NCBI GenBank assembly: GCA_000611775.1
Contig: KK106981.1
Location: 1,128,162 to 1,192,161 of the forward strand
Source of the DNA: Umbilicaria muhlenbergii
Taxonomy: Eukaryota; Ascomycota; Lecanoromycetes; Umbilicariales; Umbilicariaceae
Length of the DNA stretch: 64,000 bases
Reading direction: 5' to 3'
Positions 8,255-63,783 of this stretch are shown one piece after another (position 1 is the first letter of the stretch; every line of letters starts with the position of its first letter). The notes below the pieces were generated by a model that had not been told where the DNA came from, made no database searches, and was given only the letters and a program-made list of their open reading frames with translations. The position numbers were made by a program, and so were the translations under genes.

Positions 8255-10272
8255 CTAGACCTGACCCATCGTAACCATTTTCTTCCGCAAGTAATTCTTA
8301 TACTCTCCGATCGAGCCATCCCATCGCCTAATAGTCTTGTTTTCGCAGACCATGATGTCCTTGGCAATTTTGTCGAGCAACCTAGGGATCAAGTCAGCAA
8401 GCATATTCTTCCCTCTGAGCATCAAGTGATCACAAACCTGAAGTCGTGCGAGACAACGACTACACCACCACTGAACGCATTGATAGCGTCCGCCAAGGAG
8501 TCAATTGTTGGGATATCCAAACCGTTAGTCGGCTCGTCCAACAACAGCATGTTCGGACCGTCAATGGCCAGCAAGGCAAAGACAATTCTGCTTTTCTGAC
8601 CCTCGGACAGTGTGCCCATCAACGCGGTCTGTGACTCTCCGGAAAGGCCGTATCTACCTAGCTGCTGTCGCCAGTACTGATAATCCTGGCTTTTGTCGGC
8701 GTACTTGTCCCGCACAAAGTCCAGTGCCGACTTGGTGAGGTCGAGTTGCTCTGCGGAGTGCTGGCTGTACATTCCAAGCTTAAGATGCGTGTGGCGCGAG
8801 ACGACCCCGCCGGTTGGCGAGAGTTTACCTGTCATTAAGCGGAGGAGAGTAGATTTGCCGACACCATTGGGCCCCACAAGCGCGGTTCTGGAATCCATAT
8901 CGACACCAAGGTCAAGGTTCTCGTAAAGGTTGTCCTTGGCGTTACCCGAGTAAGAGAATGTCACATCGTCGAAAGAGAGAACTGGTGGAGGGAGTTTCTC
9001 CACATCTGCGAAGCGGAAAGTGAACACACGATCCTGAGCCACGGGTTGGATAAAACCATCTGCTTCCATCTTGTCCAGGATCTTTTGCCTCGACTTTGCT
9101 TGTCGCACCAAGTTGGCGTATGTACCTGCTGATGCGATGAACTTCTTGATGTGAGAAATCTCTTCCTGTTGCTTAGCATAAGCCTTCATTTGGTTCGTCT
9201 CCTGCTCCGAGCGAGTCTTTATGTACGAGTCGTAGTTACCACCGTAGTAGATAAGCTTCTGCATGCGCATGTCGATCATGTTCGTGCAAACACCGTTGAG
9301 GAAATCCATACTGTGGGATACGAGAATGAGCGTTCGATCCCACTTCTTTAGGTATTCTTCCAGCCACACACAAGCCTCCAGATCCAAATGGGCAGTGGGA
9401 TCGTCGAGGAGTAGTAAGGAAGGCTTCACGAATAATGCTTTCGCTAGTGCAACACGCATACGCCAACCACCAGACATATCCTTCGTTTGTTTGTGGATGG
9501 TTTTCTTATTGAAGCCGAGACCAGTCAAAATAAGAGATGCTCGAGTTGCGAATGTTGAAGGATCCATGGTTTCCATGCGCTAGAGAAAGTCAGTCACCGT
9601 TGTAGTCTCCCGCCAAAGCTTCCTTACCTCATATAGATCCTCCAAGATTGGGCTCTCTGGGCCATCCTTCTCCAGTATCTCCTCTGCAAGCTTGTCTAGA
9701 CGCTCCATCTCGTTCTCCGCTTCCTTAACGACCCACTCCAAAGCTCCAAGATCACTCGGTGGAGCACCCTCGTTCAATAGGTAAATGTCGATTTGGTCTG
9801 GTATGGGGTATTCTCGCTTGTCGATCGCTTTGAGGAGTGTAGACTTGCCACAACCGTTCTCTCCCAATAGACCATACCTTCGGCCGTAGTTAAGCTCCAA
9901 TGTGGTGTCTGTGATGAGGACCTTGCCGTGGAAGACGAGAGATACAGAGCTGATCTTTACGTCGCGGCTGGCAGCCAGTGATGCTAGAACTCCCGTGGTG
10001 ACCCGATCTGAGAGACCGTGCTTATCCATTTGATCCGTGAGCTTCTTGACCTCCACCGCTTTCTCTGCCGTTGTTGCTGGCTGTTCATCGTCGGGAAGAG
10101 CGTTACCGTCGCCGTCTAGCAAGGGCGGGGTGTCATCGCCGTTGACCGAGGATGCGGAAGAACCGGTTTTGGATGCTGCCTTAGAAGAGACTTTGGACGC
10201 TGCTGTCTTCTTCTTTTCCGTTCCGGCCTCAGCGCGCTTAGCCTGACGGGCAGCTTTCGATGCGGAAACCAT
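8255..10272 (-). CDS. ARB1: ABCF-type ATPase ARB1, ribosome biogenesis
   Basis: Exons 10272-9628, 9579-8438 and 8381-8255 encode 637 residues, the normal length. It is a soluble tandem ABC ATPase without membrane segments. The first ATPase domain has Walker [10 protein letters not shown], signature [10 protein letters not shown] and the family-specific [15 protein letters not shown]; the second has [23 protein letters not shown] and [11 protein letters not shown]. The Asp-Asp-Pro variant in the first Walker B region is what yeast ARB1 has, so it is not a defect. The stretch between the domains ([20 protein letters not shown]) matches the ARB1 linker. ARB1 (human ABCF2) shuttles between nucleus and cytoplasm and is needed for 40S and 60S maturation. 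The N-terminal 60 residues are Lys/Ala/Ser-rich and probably disordered. Housekeeping gene, high certainty. Confidence 0.97.
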
Positions 10273-13601: not shown

Positions 13602-13770
13602 TGCTCCCTGCCAGGATCGAACTGGCGACCTTGAGATATCTAGACTGTTTGAAGCAGCCAAGGCATATATAGAGCTATATGAGACTCACTTTTTACATTG
13701 TTAGTTAATAGATCACCAAGTGTCACAGAACAAGAACACTAACCGTGATAACCAACTACACCAAGGAAGC
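13602..13770 (-). tRNA. Elongator tRNA-Met (CAT) with two introns, one at the odd position 26/27
   Basis: Three pieces, 13770-13744, 13688-13678 and 13637-13602, join to a 74-nt tRNA. The acceptor pairs GCTTCCT with AGGGAGC, the D stem is GTGT/TCAC, the anticodon arm is TGAGT-CTCATAA-TCTCA as in fungal elongator Met, the T stem is GCCAG/CTGGC around TTCGATC, and the discriminator is A. The insert 13677-13638 (40 nt) sits after position 37, the usual site, and its CTATATATG can pair with the anticodon. The other insert, 13743-13689 (55 nt), lies between positions 26 and 27. It begins GTTAGT, has TTAACTAAC near its 3' end and ends AG, as a spliceosomal intron would. Boxes A and B are intact in the outer pieces, and T runs follow the 3' end. 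Confidence 0.85.
13689..13743 (-). other. Spliceosomal-type intron inside the tRNA-Met gene
   Basis: 55-nt insertion between tRNA positions 26 and 27. It starts GTTAGTG, carries the branch-like box TTAACTAAC with its last base 13 nt before the 3' end, and ends AAAAAG. Length and signals match the short mRNA introns in this window. Fungal tRNA introns removed by the tRNA endonuclease lie only at 37/38, so this one would need another route. Splicing is inferred from sequence alone. Confidence 0.7.
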
Positions 13771-16958: not shown

Positions 16959-19191
16959 TCAAACCTCCCTGCTAGCCGCATCCGGCGCATTAACCGCCAC
17001 GCCCCCCAATCTCCTCGCCACCTGACTCGGCGTACTACAATAACTAGGCGGCACATCCAGGGCCGGATTCTTCAAAAAGAAATTCCTCGGCCTCAACAGC
17101 AAAGTAAACGGTTCGGCCGGCATGATAGGATAATCCTCGGGGGCGGGGAAATGCGTGATACCGAAAGTGTGCCAGAGGACGATGTCGGTGTTGTCGATGT
17201 TCTCGCTGGCGGATTGCTCGATCCACTCGGGGAGGCCGCGGGAGGGGTCGCCCGAGGTTTGGGGCACGTGGCGGCCGGCGGGGTGGAGTTGGTCGTCACG
17301 GTCTGGGGGGAAAAAGGGAGTTAGATCAACGTATCTTATGAACTGGGCTGGCCAGAGAGTGGAAAATGGGAAGGGGAACATACATTTAGTAACATGGATG
17401 GCGTGTCGTGCGAATCCAGCCCTCTTCCACACCAAACCCCCTTCCCTCGGCAACAAGCCAGGTACTTCCCTGCTGACGAGTTTGTAACTGACGGGCTTGT
17501 GGCTGTATGGATTGATTTTGTTCGTGTTGGCCATATCCCACGTGCGACTGGTGCTGCCATCATAGTCTGCAATCGCCTCCTTGGGGGTGGTATATTTGGT
17601 CTTGTGGGCATAGAAAGCATTGCCATGCTTGTTCTCTGCACTGCCCACCTCACCTGGTCCCCTTGCGGCATCGACTTGGAAAATTGTATTATTAGGGCCG
17701 TCAATGTTCGGATCAATACGCATGCAGAAGAGATGTTGGTGGTTGTGAGCGTTGACGCCTGGGTAGACTTCCGTGCCCCAGCCCAGGGTGTCCTCGCCGG
17801 GGTTCATGGCGTAGGTGTTTAGGATACCGGTAAGCTTGATCTCGAGCTGGACGGTACCATCCTGGTGGAAGACCCAGTACACGCAATATTCATAATTAGC
17901 AGCGGTGAAGACCTGGGAGATGAGGAGTTTGCGGCCGCGAGTGACGATAACGGAGTCGTCACGGAAGTCGGTGTGCTTGAAGAGGATGCCGGCGTCCTCT
18001 TCATGGATGCAGATGGCATTCTTGATGGTCGTACTGGCCCCGGCGCGGTTGACGAAGTTGGCGTCCATGTAGTGAATTGCGCCTTTGCAGTCGCAGCCTA
18101 AAGCTAAGCTGTTGGTCATATAGCCTCCACCGTATTCGCCGAGATCGAAGGCGTGTTTCCGTTGGTGTGGGTGTTCAGGATTGCCGTACGGAACGACCAT
18201 TTCTGCGAGCGATAGCCGGTAGAATACTCCTCTCTCGTTACCCTTGTCGTTGTAGGTTATGTTGTTCAAAACGATGCCCTCTTTGTAGTTGAAGCCGACG
18301 TGCACCTTCCAGTTTTGCCATTCGATTATCCTACCATCAACCTTGAAGGAGACACCCTCTGGCTGTGTGATGTTGATGGGCTTTATGTCCTTGCGGTATC
18401 CACCTTCGGCTTCAACTGCTGCAGGGGTGTAGTTGTTCGCCGGGGCTTGGTTCACGGGTCGTCGTACAGGGGGAACATCGATATGGATGATTTCCTGGGT
18501 GTCTGCGTTGAAAATAGGAGTAAAGTCGAGTGGGTATGTATACTGGCTGTCGTCGGGATGGGGCCTGTAGTACATCAAGGCTTGCTGTAGCCGGACCTTG
18601 CTGCCGAATCTCTCGTCGTAGCCGATTGTCCACGCTGTCCACGCGTCAACCCAGATATTTATGCCCACCAGGTCTGGTCACTTACGATCGCAGTAGACTT
18701 TATGCATGTCCTCCTTTGGAATGCCAATGATTCCACACTGCTCAATCACCTTGGGGTCTTCTCGCACCACATGCTCGACAATTTGAAGGTCCTCCATCGT
18801 AATCTAAGAGAGATCAGGACGGTCCACGAAGACGGATTGTACAACATAAGCTTACCAATGGCTGTACTCCATCAGTCAACTCCCAATTGACAATCTTCTT
18901 CTCCGTCAAGTCTACCCATCCATCGTAGACCTTGCTTCCCTTCCCAATCGCAACGACATCAGCTACCCGATGCGGCCGAACCGTGTGATCGGGGTCTGCC
19001 AGCCAGGCCTGCATCTCCGCCTTCCGAGGCTCCAACAATGAGATGGCATTGTAATAAAGGGATCCATGCTCCCTGCGGACCAGGTCTGCGGCAGTCTCAA
19101 TTTCCGAGGCGGAGAGAGGGTCGAATGGATGCGGAGGAGGGGCGGTGCCTGTGACATGTTGCGCCACCTGCTTTAGTCGGTCGAGGACCAT
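16959..19191 (-). CDS. Copper amine oxidase
   Basis: Four exons, 19191-18856, 18803-18686, 18634-17384 and 17302-16959, give 682 residues, normal for fungal members. The enzyme oxidises primary amines to aldehydes with release of ammonia and peroxide. Its cofactor is made from a tyrosine in the NYEY motif (AANYEYCVYW, about residue 397), present here. Copper ligands are visible in HNHQH (about residue 446) and the late His in ITHFPAPEDYPIMP. The N-terminal domain begins HPFDPLSASEIETAADLV, where homologues start. The joins VQPL-ITMED, YCD-PWTIGYDERFG and VTK-YRDDQLHP all rebuild conserved stretches. No signal peptide is seen, and the C-terminus (AASREV) lacks an obvious SKL-type peroxisome signal. 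Function in using amines as nitrogen source is known for the family. Confidence 0.95.
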
Positions 19192-25868: not shown

Positions 25869-28055
25869 ATGCACCTACCTGTGCATCCATCAGGTGCTTC
25901 ATCCGGCCTTTCTTTAGGAGACATCGCACTCAACAGCATCCAAGGCAACGATGCTGGCTCCAAGCTTCGAGAGTGGTCATCGTTGATCGGCATTGTCACT
26001 GCGATCGTCGGCAACATCTTCATCTCCTTTGCGCTGAACATCCAACGCTACGCCCACATACGCCTACACCAAGAGCGGGAGCGCGGAAACAAGTCTGGCA
26101 AGGGAAAGACAAACGGCCATAATGGCTACGGGACACAACAGGACAAGATCGCCGAAGAGCGGGCGCGGCTGAATCTCGACGCGCCAGCGCAGGACGAGGA
26201 GGACGCGGAACACCAGAAGCGCTATCATGGCGATCGGTCCGAGACTGAATCCGAGTCGGAAGATGATGAGACGACACCGCTCAAGAGACCTTTGCAAACG
26301 CGGAGCTCGTCCGAGTCGACGCTCAAGCAGTCTGAGAAGGGAAATGCGGCTGCAGAGGGCAAGACGTATCTCAGTTCGCCGTATTGGTGGGCTGGGATAC
26401 TCCTCATGACGGTGGGTGAAGCTGGTAACTTCCTGGCGTATGGATTTGCACCGGCTTCGATCGTGTCACCGCTCGGGGTGGTCGCCTTGGTGTCGAATTG
26501 CATCATCGCGCCGTGTCTGCTGAAGGAACGCTTTCGGCAGCGGGACTTTTGGGGCGTGGCGGTGGCCGTTGCCGGAGCGGTCACGGTGGTCCTCAGTGCG
26601 AAGACATCAGAGCCTAAGATGGGGCCGGATGATGTATGGTCTGCAATCACGCGCTGGGAGTTTGAGCTTTACTTGGGAATTACTGCGGCGTTGATAATTG
26701 GACTGATATGGGCCAGCGGGAAATATGGGCACAAGACGGTACTCATTGATTTAGGGCTTGTAGGACTATTCGGTAGGTCTAGTAGACGGTTGGATGCGTT
26801 TGCTTTGACGTCTGCTAACACGACAATAGGCGGCTACACTGCCCTATCCACCAAGGGCGTAGCATCTCTTTTCTCGGACACTCTCTGGCGAGCGCTTACT
26901 TTTCCCATCACCTACCTTTTGATCTTCATTCTCGTCGTAACGGCGCTGCTCCAGATACGATATGTCAACAAGGCCTTGCAGCGGTTCGACTCCACCCAGG
27001 TTATACCCACACAGTTTGTTTTGTTCACTCTATCGGTCATCATTGGAAGTGCCATCTTATACCGAGACTTCGAGTCCGCAACAGTGGACCGGGTTGGGAA
27101 GTTTGTCGGTGGTTGTGCGTTGACATTCCTCGGAGTATACCTGATTACTAGCGGGAGGGGACGAAACGATGGCGAAGAGGAAGATGACGATGACGATCCT
27201 GATGGCGAGCAAGACGCGATAGATCTCGTGGACGCGGAAGCACGCGAAGACGATATGGATAGGGCTCATGGCGACGATCCTGCTGCCCGACGGAAGTCAA
27301 TGGCTAGTTCCGTGTTCGATCCTAGTGCGAGTCCGACCAGGTCACGACGCTCTTCCCGTCGAGAGTCGAATCCGAGCTCCAGGCCGGAAAAGGCAACACA
27401 TTCTCAGTCGCATTCCTTTTCAGGGCCGTCGATGCCTGCCTTGTCAGTTACACGGAGTCGAGAATCAGACCCGGGTCTGACCGACAACCCATGGCTATCC
27501 AACGAAGGACTTCTCACGCCGACGAACAGCAGGCTTCGTCTGCAGAGTACTATCTCCTCTCCACAGTTGCCTACAGAGACGCACGGGGTGGAGAACGTCA
27601 ATCCACGCGCTCAAACGCAAAAACACTTGCCCACGTTGAAAGGCGAAAGACCGTCCACGCTCACAAGACGGTCGATGTCCCGGATGATGCCCGGACCGCT
27701 GGTATCACCGTTGTCCTCGTCGCTCAGTGGCGTGGTGGCAGACTCTCTGCGGCGCGGCGTGGAGACGCCCACACGAAGACGGCCCCGCGCGGCCGTCATG
27801 CGGAAATCGGTCTCACAGCGGGGCACAGGCGATGGATCCACGGGGGGAGAAGCAGCCTTCGAGGCCGGTACTTCTCCACTTCGCGGACCACCAACGCCTC
27901 TGCCTCTGCCCAGTGCACGTGCCGGCGACGAGGAAAGTCAGCAAAGAGACACTGCTGCCAAGGGCCGATCGCAGAGTTTAAGCGCCACGCTATCCGACTA
28001 CTTCCGCCACAAGCGGGCCAAAAGCCAAGGCGATGGGCAGGCCGATGACGCATGA
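25869..28055 (+). CDS. NIPA/DUF803-family magnesium transporter-like protein
   Basis: The frame is open throughout, but 26773-26829 looks like a 57-base in-frame intron: GTAGGT donor, CTAAC box and ATAG acceptor, and its removal restores the conserved VGLFGGYTALSTKG. The spliced protein has 709 residues. About nine hydrophobic segments span residues 35-430 (IGIVTAIVGNIFISFALN, WAGILLMTVGEAGNFLAYGF, PLGVVALVSNCIIAPCLL, GVAVAVAGAVTVVL). NIPA proteins carry Mg2+ and resemble the drug/metabolite transporter fold. An insert of about 100 charged residues separates helices one and two. The last 270 residues or so, after an acidic run (EEEDDDDDPDGEQD), are Ser/Arg/Pro-rich and likely disordered, with many possible phosphorylation sites. 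Much longer than animal NIPA, as in other filamentous fungi. Confidence 0.9.
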   Translation: MHLPVHPSGASSGLSLGDIALNSIQGNDAGSKLREWSSLIGIVTAIVGNIFISFALNIQRYAHIRLHQERERGNKSGKGKTNGHNGYGTQQDKIAEERARLNLDAPAQDEEDAEHQKRYHGDRSETESESEDDETTPLKRPLQTRSSSESTLKQSEKGNAAAEGKTYLSSPYWWAGILLMTVGEAGNFLAYGFAPASIVSPLGVVALVSNCIIAPCLLKERFRQRDFWGVAVAVAGAVTVVLSAKTSEPKMGPDDVWSAITRWEFELYLGITAALIIGLIWASGKYGHKTVLIDLGLVGLFGRSSRRLDAFALTSANTTIGGYTALSTKGVASLFSDTLWRALTFPITYLLIFILVVTALLQIRYVNKALQRFDSTQVIPTQFVLFTLSVIIGSAILYRDFESATVDRVGKFVGGCALTFLGVYLITSGRGRNDGEEEDDDDDPDGEQDAIDLVDAEAREDDMDRAHGDDPAARRKSMASSVFDPSASPTRSRRSSRRESNPSSRPEKATHSQSHSFSGPSMPALSVTRSRESDPGLTDNPWLSNEGLLTPTNSRLRLQSTISSPQLPTETHGVENVNPRAQTQKHLPTLKGERPSTLTRRSMSRMMPGPLVSPLSSSLSGVVADSLRRGVETPTRRRPRAAVMRKSVSQRGTGDGSTGGEAAFEAGTSPLRGPPTPLPLPSARAGDEESQQRDTAAKGRSQSLSATLSDYFRHKRAKSQGDGQADDA
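26773..26829 (+). other. In-frame intron within the NIPA-like gene
   Basis: 57 bases, a multiple of three without a stop, so retention would insert 19 residues into a loop next to GLFGGYTALS. Signals: GTAGGT donor, CTAAC about 14 bases before the end, ATAG acceptor. Splicing is inferred from family alignment. Confidence 0.8.
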
Positions 28056-61502: not shown

Positions 61503-63528
61503 TATAGCTAGATGAGATGAAGGAGTTGAGAGCTAGCAGCTGCAGTACACTGCAGTTTCCCTGGCAACTCATTCAGCTTGATGGCAATGCGATCACGTTT
61601 TGTTTTTTTGTCTGCCAATTGTTTGCTGAAATGATCAAATCCAGCCTCCTTTGACTGAATTTCGTGTCGGAGCTTATTCAGTTTCATCATGCAACATTCA
61701 AATATCTCCTTCAGCGAGGTCAGCACAGTAGTGAAGGCTCTTCAGGAGTCAAGTATCCTTTCAAGCTGTTCTTTAATCGGCGCAATGAGGCCTTCAGTCT
61801 GAAGGGGGGAGGTAGGTGAGCTGTAGGTGTTGATGATCACAGCATTCAACTCATAGATCTTTTTGACTTCGTTGAGGTCAACTTCACAGGACACGAGCTC
61901 TGTGCGTTTTGAGTTCAGCTCAAAAGCCAGCTTGCTATGCTTCTTATGAGAGGAGGCAATCCGAACCCCTGAGGATGTATAGCTTTGCGCTGAAGTACTC
62001 CCTTCACGATTTGAGCCTTTTGAGTGACTTGGCTAGCGCTTTGCTGGTAGTTGAAATTCCTTCCAGATCGTTGTCTATTGCTGAGAGATTATTGATGCTA
62101 GATACACCTTCACTCAGTCTGCTGTCACTGCTATAATCACGTCCATCCTCCCTGTTGCTATTAATGCCGTCGTCAACATTCTGCACTGCTTGCTCTTGAA
62201 GAATCTCTTCCTGCCCCGCTAGTAGATCGTTGATATTATCTGAGGCGTCTTTGCTACGGTCCTTCTAATCGTGAGTTTGATAGCCACTGGACCGGCGGTC
62301 TTCGGAAGGTTAACTGAGGCCGGAGGCTTCACGGCAAGTGATCTTGTCACCGCCGTTGAATCTCATCAATTGCTCCCCGCTATACGTCAAACACGCTCTC
62401 ATTGCGCCGTCACCATTCGCGCAGGAGGGAATACTCAGTGGGTGAAGGTAGGATTTCTGAAGAAGCCGTGCTTGAGTGAGACTGAGGATAATATCACATC
62501 CTATTGTGATTGGGACTGAGCATGCTCATATAGACCGGCGTATTTTGTCGCTGTATGTATGACGCACGGCCGCGAAGTTCAGCTGAGGAGGAAATTCTCA
62601 TGCCAGATCAGGTGAGCTGCCGTCCATGCAACATTCACCACAACTGGAGTCATTGTTCTGTGTCGGATGGTGCACGTCTTGCACATACTACCACGCACAA
62701 CCGCGAAGCGCAACATCGGTGGTGCAACCCCAGTTCATCAGGCTGTCAATTAGCTGTGTGCTGTCCTCATATACTCAATCCGGCTCGTGCGATTGGCCGG
62801 GTCGTAGCGCCGAATCAGCCGCTCATCGATTTTAGCCACACAGAGCGTCCAGTGCTCCAGATATGATGACTTGTTAGAATGGTGAAGAGGGAATATGAGT
62901 AACATCTTGCCGTGGAGATTTGAGGGGTTCTGGCTGCTGTTCAATTGCTGCGAAATCCATGCTCTGTCCCCACCCGCGTACAGGGCGGAAAAAGCTTTGC
63001 ATCATTTGAGCAAGTCTGTCAGATGAATAACGCTATCAATTGCGTCCTTAGTCAGATCTTGTCCGGGTTATAAAGCTGTAAGTACGTGGTTCTTATTAAG
63101 CGTTCCAGCTCGAAGTAGTAACACCCGGCGTAGTGTCTCAGGATTGAATCCGTGAATTCAATGAACGGCCTGTATCACAGTTAGCTCTCAGCTTTTTACT
63201 GATCTCCAGGGAAAGGTCCAGGGAAAGCATACTGTTTAGACGGGTGGTGGCACACCGCCAATAAAGCAGCAGTCCATAGTCACCGACTTGCAATCCGCTA
63301 TCATGCGATCTTTCTTCGAGAGGATGTCTCGTGTCATGGTTAGAACGTTGATCATCTTAGCTAACACTTCTCTCCACGTTGGTTGATTGAATTTGGAACC
63401 CGGAAGTACTTACCGTCGACAGCCTCTTCATCGATCGATGGGGCTTCTGCCCATACGTCACCTTCTCCATGGTCAGCTAGCGATGGCTCATCCTCGTGAT
63501 GTCGAGAAGCTTCTACAGTAAAATTCAT
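61503..63528 (-). pseudogene. Decayed Ulp1-like cysteine protease gene with a coiled-coil tail
   Basis: Read on the minus strand. It begins with a plausible exon 63528-63412 (MNFTVEASRHHEDEPSLADH) ending at a GTAAGT donor, then KMINVLTMTRDILSKKDRM, PFIEFTDSILRHYAGCYYF and, near 62990-62750, FPLHHSNKSSYLEHWTLCVA with YDPANRT: the catalytic His region of Ulp1/C48 SUMO-type proteases. NNDSSCGECCMDG near 62600 matches the catalytic Cys region. Downstream (62264-61503) come helical stretches such as SKRTELVSCEVDLNEVKKIY and KKTKRDRIAIKLNEL. In-frame TGA codons at 63004-63002 and 61744-61742 stand where CGA would fit, a TAG interrupts before the Cys motif, and the frame changes near 62750 and 62020. 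Probably dead. Fungi often carry such genes in many copies, some carried by DNA transposons. Confidence 0.65.
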
Positions 63529-63618
63529 TATAATGAAGCTCCTCTGAAAAACAAATAAGTGGCTCCACATCTAAAATGTAAAAATATATGATGCTCTCCA
63601 TCTGGGAATCGAGCCCAG

Positions 63619-63672
63619 CTGCGATAATGTTAGAGTGTACTCCAGGAAGCAAGGTTTTCTAAGAATCCTTAC
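63619..63672 (-). other. Spliceosomal-type intron 2 in the second tRNA gene
   Basis: 54-nt insertion between the variable loop and the T stem. Starts GTAAGG, has CACTCTAACATT near the end, and ends GCAG. Removal is needed to bring the T arm next to the anticodon arm. Splicing inferred. Confidence 0.7.
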
Positions 63673-63705
63673 GTCTCCCGCGCTTGACTTGATCTAACAA
63701 GCGGA

Positions 63706-63757
63706 CTTGAAGCAGTTAGTATCAGATCTTTCAGCAGGAGGGGAGAAATAAGCTTAC
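63706..63757 (-). other. Spliceosomal-type intron 1 in the second tRNA gene
   Basis: 52-nt insertion between tRNA positions 26 and 27, the same site as in the tRNA-Met gene. Starts GTAAGC, has GATACTAACTGC with the box ending about 9 bases before the end, and ends CAAG. Splicing inferred. Confidence 0.7.
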
Positions 63758-63783
63758 AATCATGACCACTAGACCAACGAAGA

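Follow-up and report, generated by a model that had tools for sequence, protein, structure and literature searches.

Probable spliceosomal introns in more than half of the tRNA genes found in Umbilicaria muhlenbergii

Inserts with GT-AG or GC-AG ends interrupt 23 of the 41 tRNA genes that we counted in the 34.8-Mb, 7-contig genome assembly of Umbilicaria muhlenbergii. Sequence comparison makes it very probable that these inserts are spliceosomal introns residing in tRNA genes of Pol III; an insert at position 37/38 is present as well in 17 of the 23. Since many tRNA genes are cut by introns of the mRNA type, the cell probably needs the mRNA splicing machine for making tRNAs. Two of these genes lie in the window, i.e. 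the whole 64-kb stretch of DNA analysed here (C1:1128162-1192161).

Organisation of the two tRNA genes of the window

A tRNA-Asp-type gene occupies positions 63783..63594 of the minus strand, with nucleotide 1 at 63783 and the discriminator at 63594. Its parts, its terminator and its two paralogs (L062 and L075) are:

63758..63783, minus strand: exon 1, tRNA nucleotides 1-26, acceptor 5' strand and D arm with an intact A box; acceptor paired 7/7 with exon 4
63706..63757, minus strand: GT-AG intron 1, 52 nt, site 26/27, 5' GTAAGC, branch-like ACTAAC, 3' AAG (TTCAAG); site occupied in L062 (intron identity 22/52), empty in L075
63695..63705, minus strand: exon 2, nucleotides 27-37, anticodon GTT at 34-36 (GTC in L062 and L075)
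63683..63694, minus strand: 12-nt insert at 37/38, the ordinary site of TSEN-type tRNA introns; 10 nt at the equivalent place in L062
63673..63682, minus strand: exon 3, nucleotides 38-43 and variable loop AGAC
63619..63672, minus strand: GT-AG intron 2, 54 nt, junction of variable loop and T stem, 5' GTAAGG, branch-like CTCTAAC, 3' CAG (TCGCAG); uninterrupted in L062, single excision placement GT...AG
63594..63618, minus strand: exon 4, T arm, B box GGCTCGATTCC with C54 replacing T54, acceptor 3' strand, discriminator G73
63580..63584, minus strand: TTTTT, Pol III-type terminator, 9 nt beyond the gene
C2, near 3815200: L062, Asp-type paralog (GTC), intron at 26/27 as in the window gene, no second GT-AG insert
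C3, near 5412630: L075, Asp-type paralog (GTC), uninterrupted at 26/27, inserts at 31/32 and in the variable loop

Once spliced, the exons read TCTTCGT-TG-GTCT-AGTGGTCA-TGAT-T-TCCGC-TTGTTAC-GCGGG-AGAC-CTGGG-CTCGATT-CCCAG-ATGGAGA-G, with an acceptor stem paired at 7/7 positions (two wobbles), an anticodon stem at 5/5 (one wobble), a T stem at 5/5 and a D stem at 3/4 (one wobble). An earlier note on this DNA had described two inserts between 63594 and 63783 that start with GTAAG, carry ACTAAC or CTCTAAC and end with AG, and had stated that their removal gives paired acceptor, anticodon and T stems; coordinates and signals proved exact, on the minus strand, and the three stems pair as it said, wobbles included. 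Its count of two holds for the GT-AG inserts and overlooked the third insert, of 12 nt, which sits at 37/38 as expected for TSEN tRNA introns. CTAAC is found in both GT-AG introns, 10 and 11 nt before the 3' end. The gene has discriminator G73, G10-U25 and C38, which are Asp identity elements in yeast.

The second gene of the window is a tRNA-Met gene:

13602..13770, minus strand: tRNA-Met (CAT) gene
13770-13744, minus strand: exon
13743-13689, minus strand: GT-AG intron, 55 nt, site 26/27
13688-13678, minus strand: exon
13677-13638, minus strand: 40-nt insert at 37/38
13637-13602, minus strand: exon

This gene, about 50 kb away, had been credited with the same architecture of two GT-AG inserts; the GT-AG intron at 26/27 is retained here, and the other insert is best read as a 40-nt insert at 37/38. 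Note that the cut of the Met gene is the least certain of the set, with one U-U mismatch left in the anticodon stem and rival excisions scoring up to 3.8 points better. ARAGORN with default settings and Rfam, even at E up to 1, saw no tRNA anywhere in the 64-kb window, and ARAGORN with a wide intron range found there only the Met gene, which it called tRNA-SeC. A short ORF (69 aa) lies on the minus strand within 62300-63571, starting 23 bases past the Asp-type gene and spanning a GTAAGT; beyond it, the stretch (62300-63571, minus strand) is without a listed ORF of at least 220 aa and is possibly a decayed or intron-rich gene.

Survey of tRNA genes and signals of the inserts

We applied an intron-tolerant finder to the RF00005 loci, to all 76 B-box places (GGTTCGANTCC) and to the A-box places that were fetched (14/14, 20/23 and 25/62 examined). 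The RF00005 search scored 63 of 1258 candidates, yielded 29 matches at E up to 10 and is biased towards intronless genes; the B-box sample (76/76 places examined) sees only genes with an unsplit, unvaried B box and is intron-blind upstream of it. As the B-box pattern has 76 occurrences and its backwards version 67, most of its matches are due to chance and it is useful only together with the finder; we rejected it as a gene counter. The finder accepts only GT/GC-AG ends, rewards a branch-like motif (not its exact place) and demands mostly paired stems. Only the any-ends excision test and the paralog placement test, given below, are free of its bias towards GT/GC-AG ends. On reversed sequences, the highest scores were 35.9 (18/198 gave any match) and 26.8 (2/72), to be compared with at least 47.6 for the genes counted.

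The 41 genes comprise 40 from the finder, on which the tallies of intron cuts, flanks and inserts are based, and L006 (C1:4707656-4707737), a tRNA-Ala(TGC) with U53-A61 in place of the usual G53-C61, which was taken from ARAGORN because the finder excludes that pair. L075 was set by hand as a two-intron gene, the finder preferring a one-intron reading with anticodon ATG. Left out of all counts are L043, L095 (45.8), L053 (36.0), L018 and everything below 47. L043 (C1 near 5609920) and L095 (C6 near 1638420) are tRNA-like, with a common acceptor stem, an extended anticodon stem, a long anticodon-loop insert and no T33.

The 28 GT-AG or GC-AG introns fall in 23/41 genes, 18/41 having none; in the intron-blind B-box sample, GT-AG introns are present in 11 of 19 genes (L043, L053 and L095 left out). 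The suggestion, drawn from both tRNA genes of the window, that this architecture may be general in the genome stands as to wide occurrence and is too strong as to all genes. The intron-bearing genes are both Phe, Tyr (two introns), Cys, initiator Met (two), elongator Met, three Asp-type and two Ile-AAT; two Ala-AGC, Thr-AGT, Thr-TGT, Ser-AGA and Ser-GCT (two introns, one of them GC-AG); and Leu-AAG, Leu-CAG, Leu-CAA, Gln-TTG, Gly-CCC and Arg-ACG. By insert type, 17 of the 40 genes combine GT-AG and 37/38 inserts, 6 have GT-AG introns only, 14 a 37/38 insert only and 3 neither, so that 37/38 inserts are found in 31/40 genes.

The introns are 50-69 nt long (median 53.5, n=28). They start with GTAAGT (7), GTGAGT (6) or GTAAGC (4) among other sequences, once with GCAAGT, and end with CAG (15), TAG (8) or AAG (5). 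The GCAAGT, the usual GC-AG form of spliceosomal intron, opens the first insert of L025, a tRNA-Ser(GCT). A YTRAY branch-like motif places its A 8-13 nt from the intron end in 23/28 introns, 21 of them at 10-12, whereas 1000 first-order shuffles gave 1.9 on average and never more than 8; the motif is missing at 8-13 nt from 5/28. As a small yardstick, the window offers four mRNA introns whose positions were set with protein homologs:

18804..18855, minus strand: intron 1 of the copper amine oxidase gene, 52 nt, GTAAGC...CCTGATCTCTCTTAG
18635..18685, minus strand: intron 2 of the copper amine oxidase gene, 51 nt, GTAAGT...GGTTGACGCGTGGACAG
9580..9627, minus strand: intron of the Arb1 gene, 48 nt, GTAAGG...GTGACTGACTTTCTCTAG
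8382..8437, minus strand: second intron of the Arb1 gene, 56 nt, GTTTGT...GCTGACTTGATCCCTAG

With lengths of 48, 51, 52 and 56 nt (n=4), these introns carry signals resembling those in the tRNA genes. A fragment of Arb1 shares 99% identity with Lasallia pustulata, and the nearest named matches of a NIPA protein of the window (25869-28055) are in Umbilicaria vellea, at 81%, and Lasallia pustulata, at 86% over 73%; these affinities place the genome among the lichen fungi of the Umbilicariaceae. Group I introns, whose catalytic core takes some 200 nt or more, were ruled out for inserts of 50-69 nt with GT-AG ends; the window has no Rfam match.

In the any-ends excision test, every stretch of 45-75 nt was removed, one cut at a time, from 113 loci without an intact tRNA, the 18 loci with an intact tRNA being left out. 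GT-AG belonged to the best set in 11 of the 20 strand-loci rescued, any other pair of ends in at most 3. On the window genes, this one-cut test picks other ends: GC-CT is best for the Asp-type gene (50.7) and AG-GA for the Met gene (52.6), where a GT-AG cut also exceeds 50. Note that a single cut cannot resolve the Asp-type gene, which needs two; the paralog comparison is the decisive test there. With the other introns held fixed and up to 7371 cuts compared, no cut outscored the annotated one in 16/28 introns; each of the remaining 12, most of them in or beside loops, has a rival cut whose structure score is 0.2 to 3.8 points better, the largest excess being the 3.8 of the window Met gene, and 2.5 for L020, L025 and L079.

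Paralogs and the state of the intron-bearing genes

Comparison with paralogs that have empty sites needs no tRNA model. In the Asp family, each of four introns has one possible placement, GT...AG, and genome-wide this placement test leaves a single excision for 10/28 introns. The ends of intron 2 of the window gene are exactly GT...AG, since L062 is without that insert. The exons of the window gene and L062 are identical at 69/72 positions, the three differences being a pair-keeping acceptor change, C36 to T and T54 to C, the last two outside stems; the anticodon is therefore GTT in the window copy, where a working tRNA-Asp has GTC. In the 26/27 intron, only 22 of 52 letters are the same.

The anticodon GTT and C54 together indicate that the window gene is probably a diverging copy, and the comparison suggests a recently diverged one, decaying or switched towards Asn. 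A switch is possible because AsnRS recognises G34-U35-U36 and G73, and because L009 and L010, the two clear Asn genes found, both carry G73; decay seems to us the likelier course. As intron 1 has drifted to 22/52 with the exons still at 69/72, the gene has probably been long retained and lately altered, or its exons have been converted. The two other Asp genes found, L062 and L075, both have GT-AG introns and would be the ones to make tRNA-Asp(GTC).

In a rival reading, the intron-bearing genes as a whole would be dead copies, mRNA introns having landed in tRNA pseudogenes with intact genes elsewhere supplying the cell. The window gene speaks for it: two of its three differences from L062 hit the key positions 36 and 54, and the pattern used found no TATA-like element upstream of it, nor of 9 other intron-bearing genes. 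For the window gene alone this reading is rather likely. RF00005 also lists 16 genes without a GT-AG intron (L001-L016), together with L018 (C1:10594996-10595067), an uninterrupted CAT match of 40.5 bits. With an acceptor stem of 5/7 and a T stem of 3/5, L018 was taken for a degenerate copy and looks like that or a tRNA-derived repeat.

For the set as a whole, however, the idea of dead copies is improbable. L062 and L075 differ by four changes, which make two double, pair-keeping changes, and L023 and L079, like L116 and L118, differ by eleven, all of which keep pairing. None of the 26 exon differences in these three comparisons falls outside stems: they affect 14 base pairs, all still paired and 12 of them changed on both sides, a result partly selected for by a finder requiring mostly paired stems; the acceptor strands lie on separate exons in all six genes. 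Five pairs were compared in all, the Phe genes differing at one position (57) and the window gene and L062 at the three given above. A run of four or more T follows within 45 nt in 23/23 intron-bearing genes and 17/17 others, against 10.9% of random positions (n=2160), and within 15 nt in 20/23 and 15/17, respectively. TATA-like elements stand upstream of 13/23 intron-bearing genes and 8/17 others (control 2.4%). In the 26/27 intron, the splice signals were retained as the rest drifted.

The cell cannot live without initiator Met, Tyr, Phe, Asp and elongator Met tRNAs, and the earlier note had named intact copies of the same isotype as a finding that would speak against it. Spliced queries for initiator Met, Tyr and Phe matched nothing but intron-bearing genes in the genome. 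For Asp and elongator Met, the unspliced window genes as queries matched only themselves and L062; these are weak searches, as they missed the known paralog L075. No such intact copy thus came to light, the answer being firmer for the first three isotypes than for the last two.

Expression, known systems and origin of the introns

We infer the following course of expression. Pol III would start from an upstream TATA-like element and the remaining A and B boxes, read through exons and introns and halt at the T-run; the spliceosome would remove the 50-69-nt GT-AG introns via a branch A some 11 nt short of the 3' end; TSEN would next remove the 37/38 insert, and the cloverleaf would form. In its strongest form, the spliceosome would be an obligatory maker of tRNA: initiator Met, Phe and Tyr, and probably elongator Met, Asp, Cys and Ile, would exist only as genes with spliceosomal introns, genes whose A or B box is split by an intron would for that reason lean on the upstream TATA element, and one pre-tRNA would pass through both spliceosome and TSEN. 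We put the chance that all of this applies only slightly above even. The A box is broken by introns at 8/9, 10/11, 11/12 and 13/14 and by some in the D loop, the B box by introns at 53/54 (L118) and 57/58 (L029), and these split B boxes raise the question how TFIIIC recognises such genes.

TSEN acts at 37/38 in textbook eukaryotic tRNA splicing, and such canonical introns are matched by the inserts that 31/40 genes have at 37/38, among them the 12-nt one of the window Asp-type gene. Multiple ectopic tRNA introns are also known in Cyanidioschyzon merolae, as well as in archaea and the Guillardia theta nucleomorph, lying at non-canonical sites with several introns per gene in some, according to the parts of PMC3978253 that we drew on. 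Such cases, and the 37/38 inserts of 17/23 intron-bearing genes, would speak for a reading in which the GT-AG inserts here are ectopic TSEN introns excised at a bulge-helix-bulge (BHB), their GT-AG ends being incidental. This reading is very improbable. The introns of those organisms are BHB introns (in G. theta, many without a defined BHB), as described in that source, whereas the present ones have GT-AG ends and a branch-like site. GT-AG leads the any-ends excision test and is the sole placement for the Asp-family introns, the branch-like motif keeps a fixed distance, and the narrow range of lengths resembles that of mRNA introns. BHB structures show no clear excess, border pairing being 4.39 compared with 4.16 at shifted borders in a crude, rough test. 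The 28 listed GT-AG introns, unlike canonical ones, occupy 22 sites other than 37/38, a statement that holds for listed introns only since the finder sought GT-AG ends outside 37/38.

A further notion is that each tRNA gene sits in the 5' leader of a Pol II gene, with leader introns of mRNAs and any tRNA a by-product. It takes its cue from the same-strand ORFs downstream of both window genes (one of 69 aa starting after 23 nt, one of 273 aa after 199 nt) and is hardly credible: among the 31/40 genes with enough flank, same-strand ORFs of at least 100 aa within 500 nt downstream are as rare after intron-bearing genes (3/16) as after others (3/15), and a T-run follows within 45 nt of each of the 40 genes. 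We return to spliceosomal introns in Pol III genes as the preferred reading.

Bhattacharya et al. reportedly described spliceosomal introns in the rDNA of lichen-forming ascomycetes in 2000. Such introns (a 57-bp example) are removed by yeast from Pol I transcripts (PMC8527467, Armaleo and Chiou 2021). As far as the portions of that source at hand go, the two cases share lichen-forming fungi, short spliceosomal introns and a host gene not transcribed by Pol II, but there the host is rRNA, via Pol I, with few introns, and here the hosts are tRNAs, in over half of the genes found, with some introns in promoter boxes. The host of the window inserts folds as a tRNA and is not a nuclear rRNA. In the available text of PMC8527467 the word "tRNA" is absent, and in that of PMC6652019, also on lichen rDNA introns, it occurs once, in a table of organelle genomes. 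Among titles and abstract openings of the open-access literature, we found no paper on spliceosomal introns in tRNA genes.

The U6 snRNA gene of Schizosaccharomyces pombe contains an mRNA-type intron, for which reverse splicing was proposed as the origin (Tani and Ohshima 1989, in the parts of PMC10484740 used). It is likewise a spliceosomal intron in a Pol III transcript; U6 itself, however, meets the spliceosome, and tRNA does not. We dropped a U6 intron as a supporting case, since the one full U6 match of the genome (G000:C3:4304988-4305087, 92 bits) is intronless. In some plants and fungi, upstream TATA boxes have an important function in the transcription of tRNA genes, and TATA-like elements upstream of algal tRNA genes are suspected drivers of transcription, as stated in the sections of PMC3978253 used here.

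If the introns are what they appear to be, large-scale colonisation of Pol III genes by spliceosomal introns is possible, and very short transcripts can be substrates of the spliceosome. tRNA genes with such introns can escape standard tRNA finders, as both window genes did. If the spliceosome is also obligatory, the supply of translation components would be coupled to splicing capacity and may help keep growth slow, by analogy with what has been proposed for lichen rDNA introns. A genetic system exists for U. muhlenbergii, according to the part of PMC11386357 consulted.

The 28 introns lie at 22 distinct sites, spanning 8/9 to 64/65. Four sites are common to different isoacceptors, when 4.2 are expected by chance (P 0.69; the window GTT and L062 GTC genes taken separately), so the common 26/27 site, to which the earlier note had drawn attention, carries no weight and is no sign of a preferred target. 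The anticodon arm as its own exon, also proposed in that note, is not a general feature either. The note's further claim, that mRNA-type introns entered tRNA genes repeatedly, agrees with the number of sites and with presence and absence differing between paralogs. With the unspliced window Asp and Met genes as queries, copies of their introns were found nowhere in the genome outside L062, and a mobile intron family is not supported. The introns probably arose by gain, for which reverse splicing would be one fitting route that the present data do not tell apart from others. Lying outside coding sequence, and with empty sites in paralogs of three families, the 28 introns make a clean set for testing intron gain, and they allow a connection of splicing with translation to be tested in lichens, which grow slowly. 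On C1 (L121, 6091350-6092040), the A box TGGCCGAGTGGTTA occurs three times within 280 bases of a repeat-like stretch in which the finder saw no tRNA, possibly the remains of a tRNA-derived repeat.
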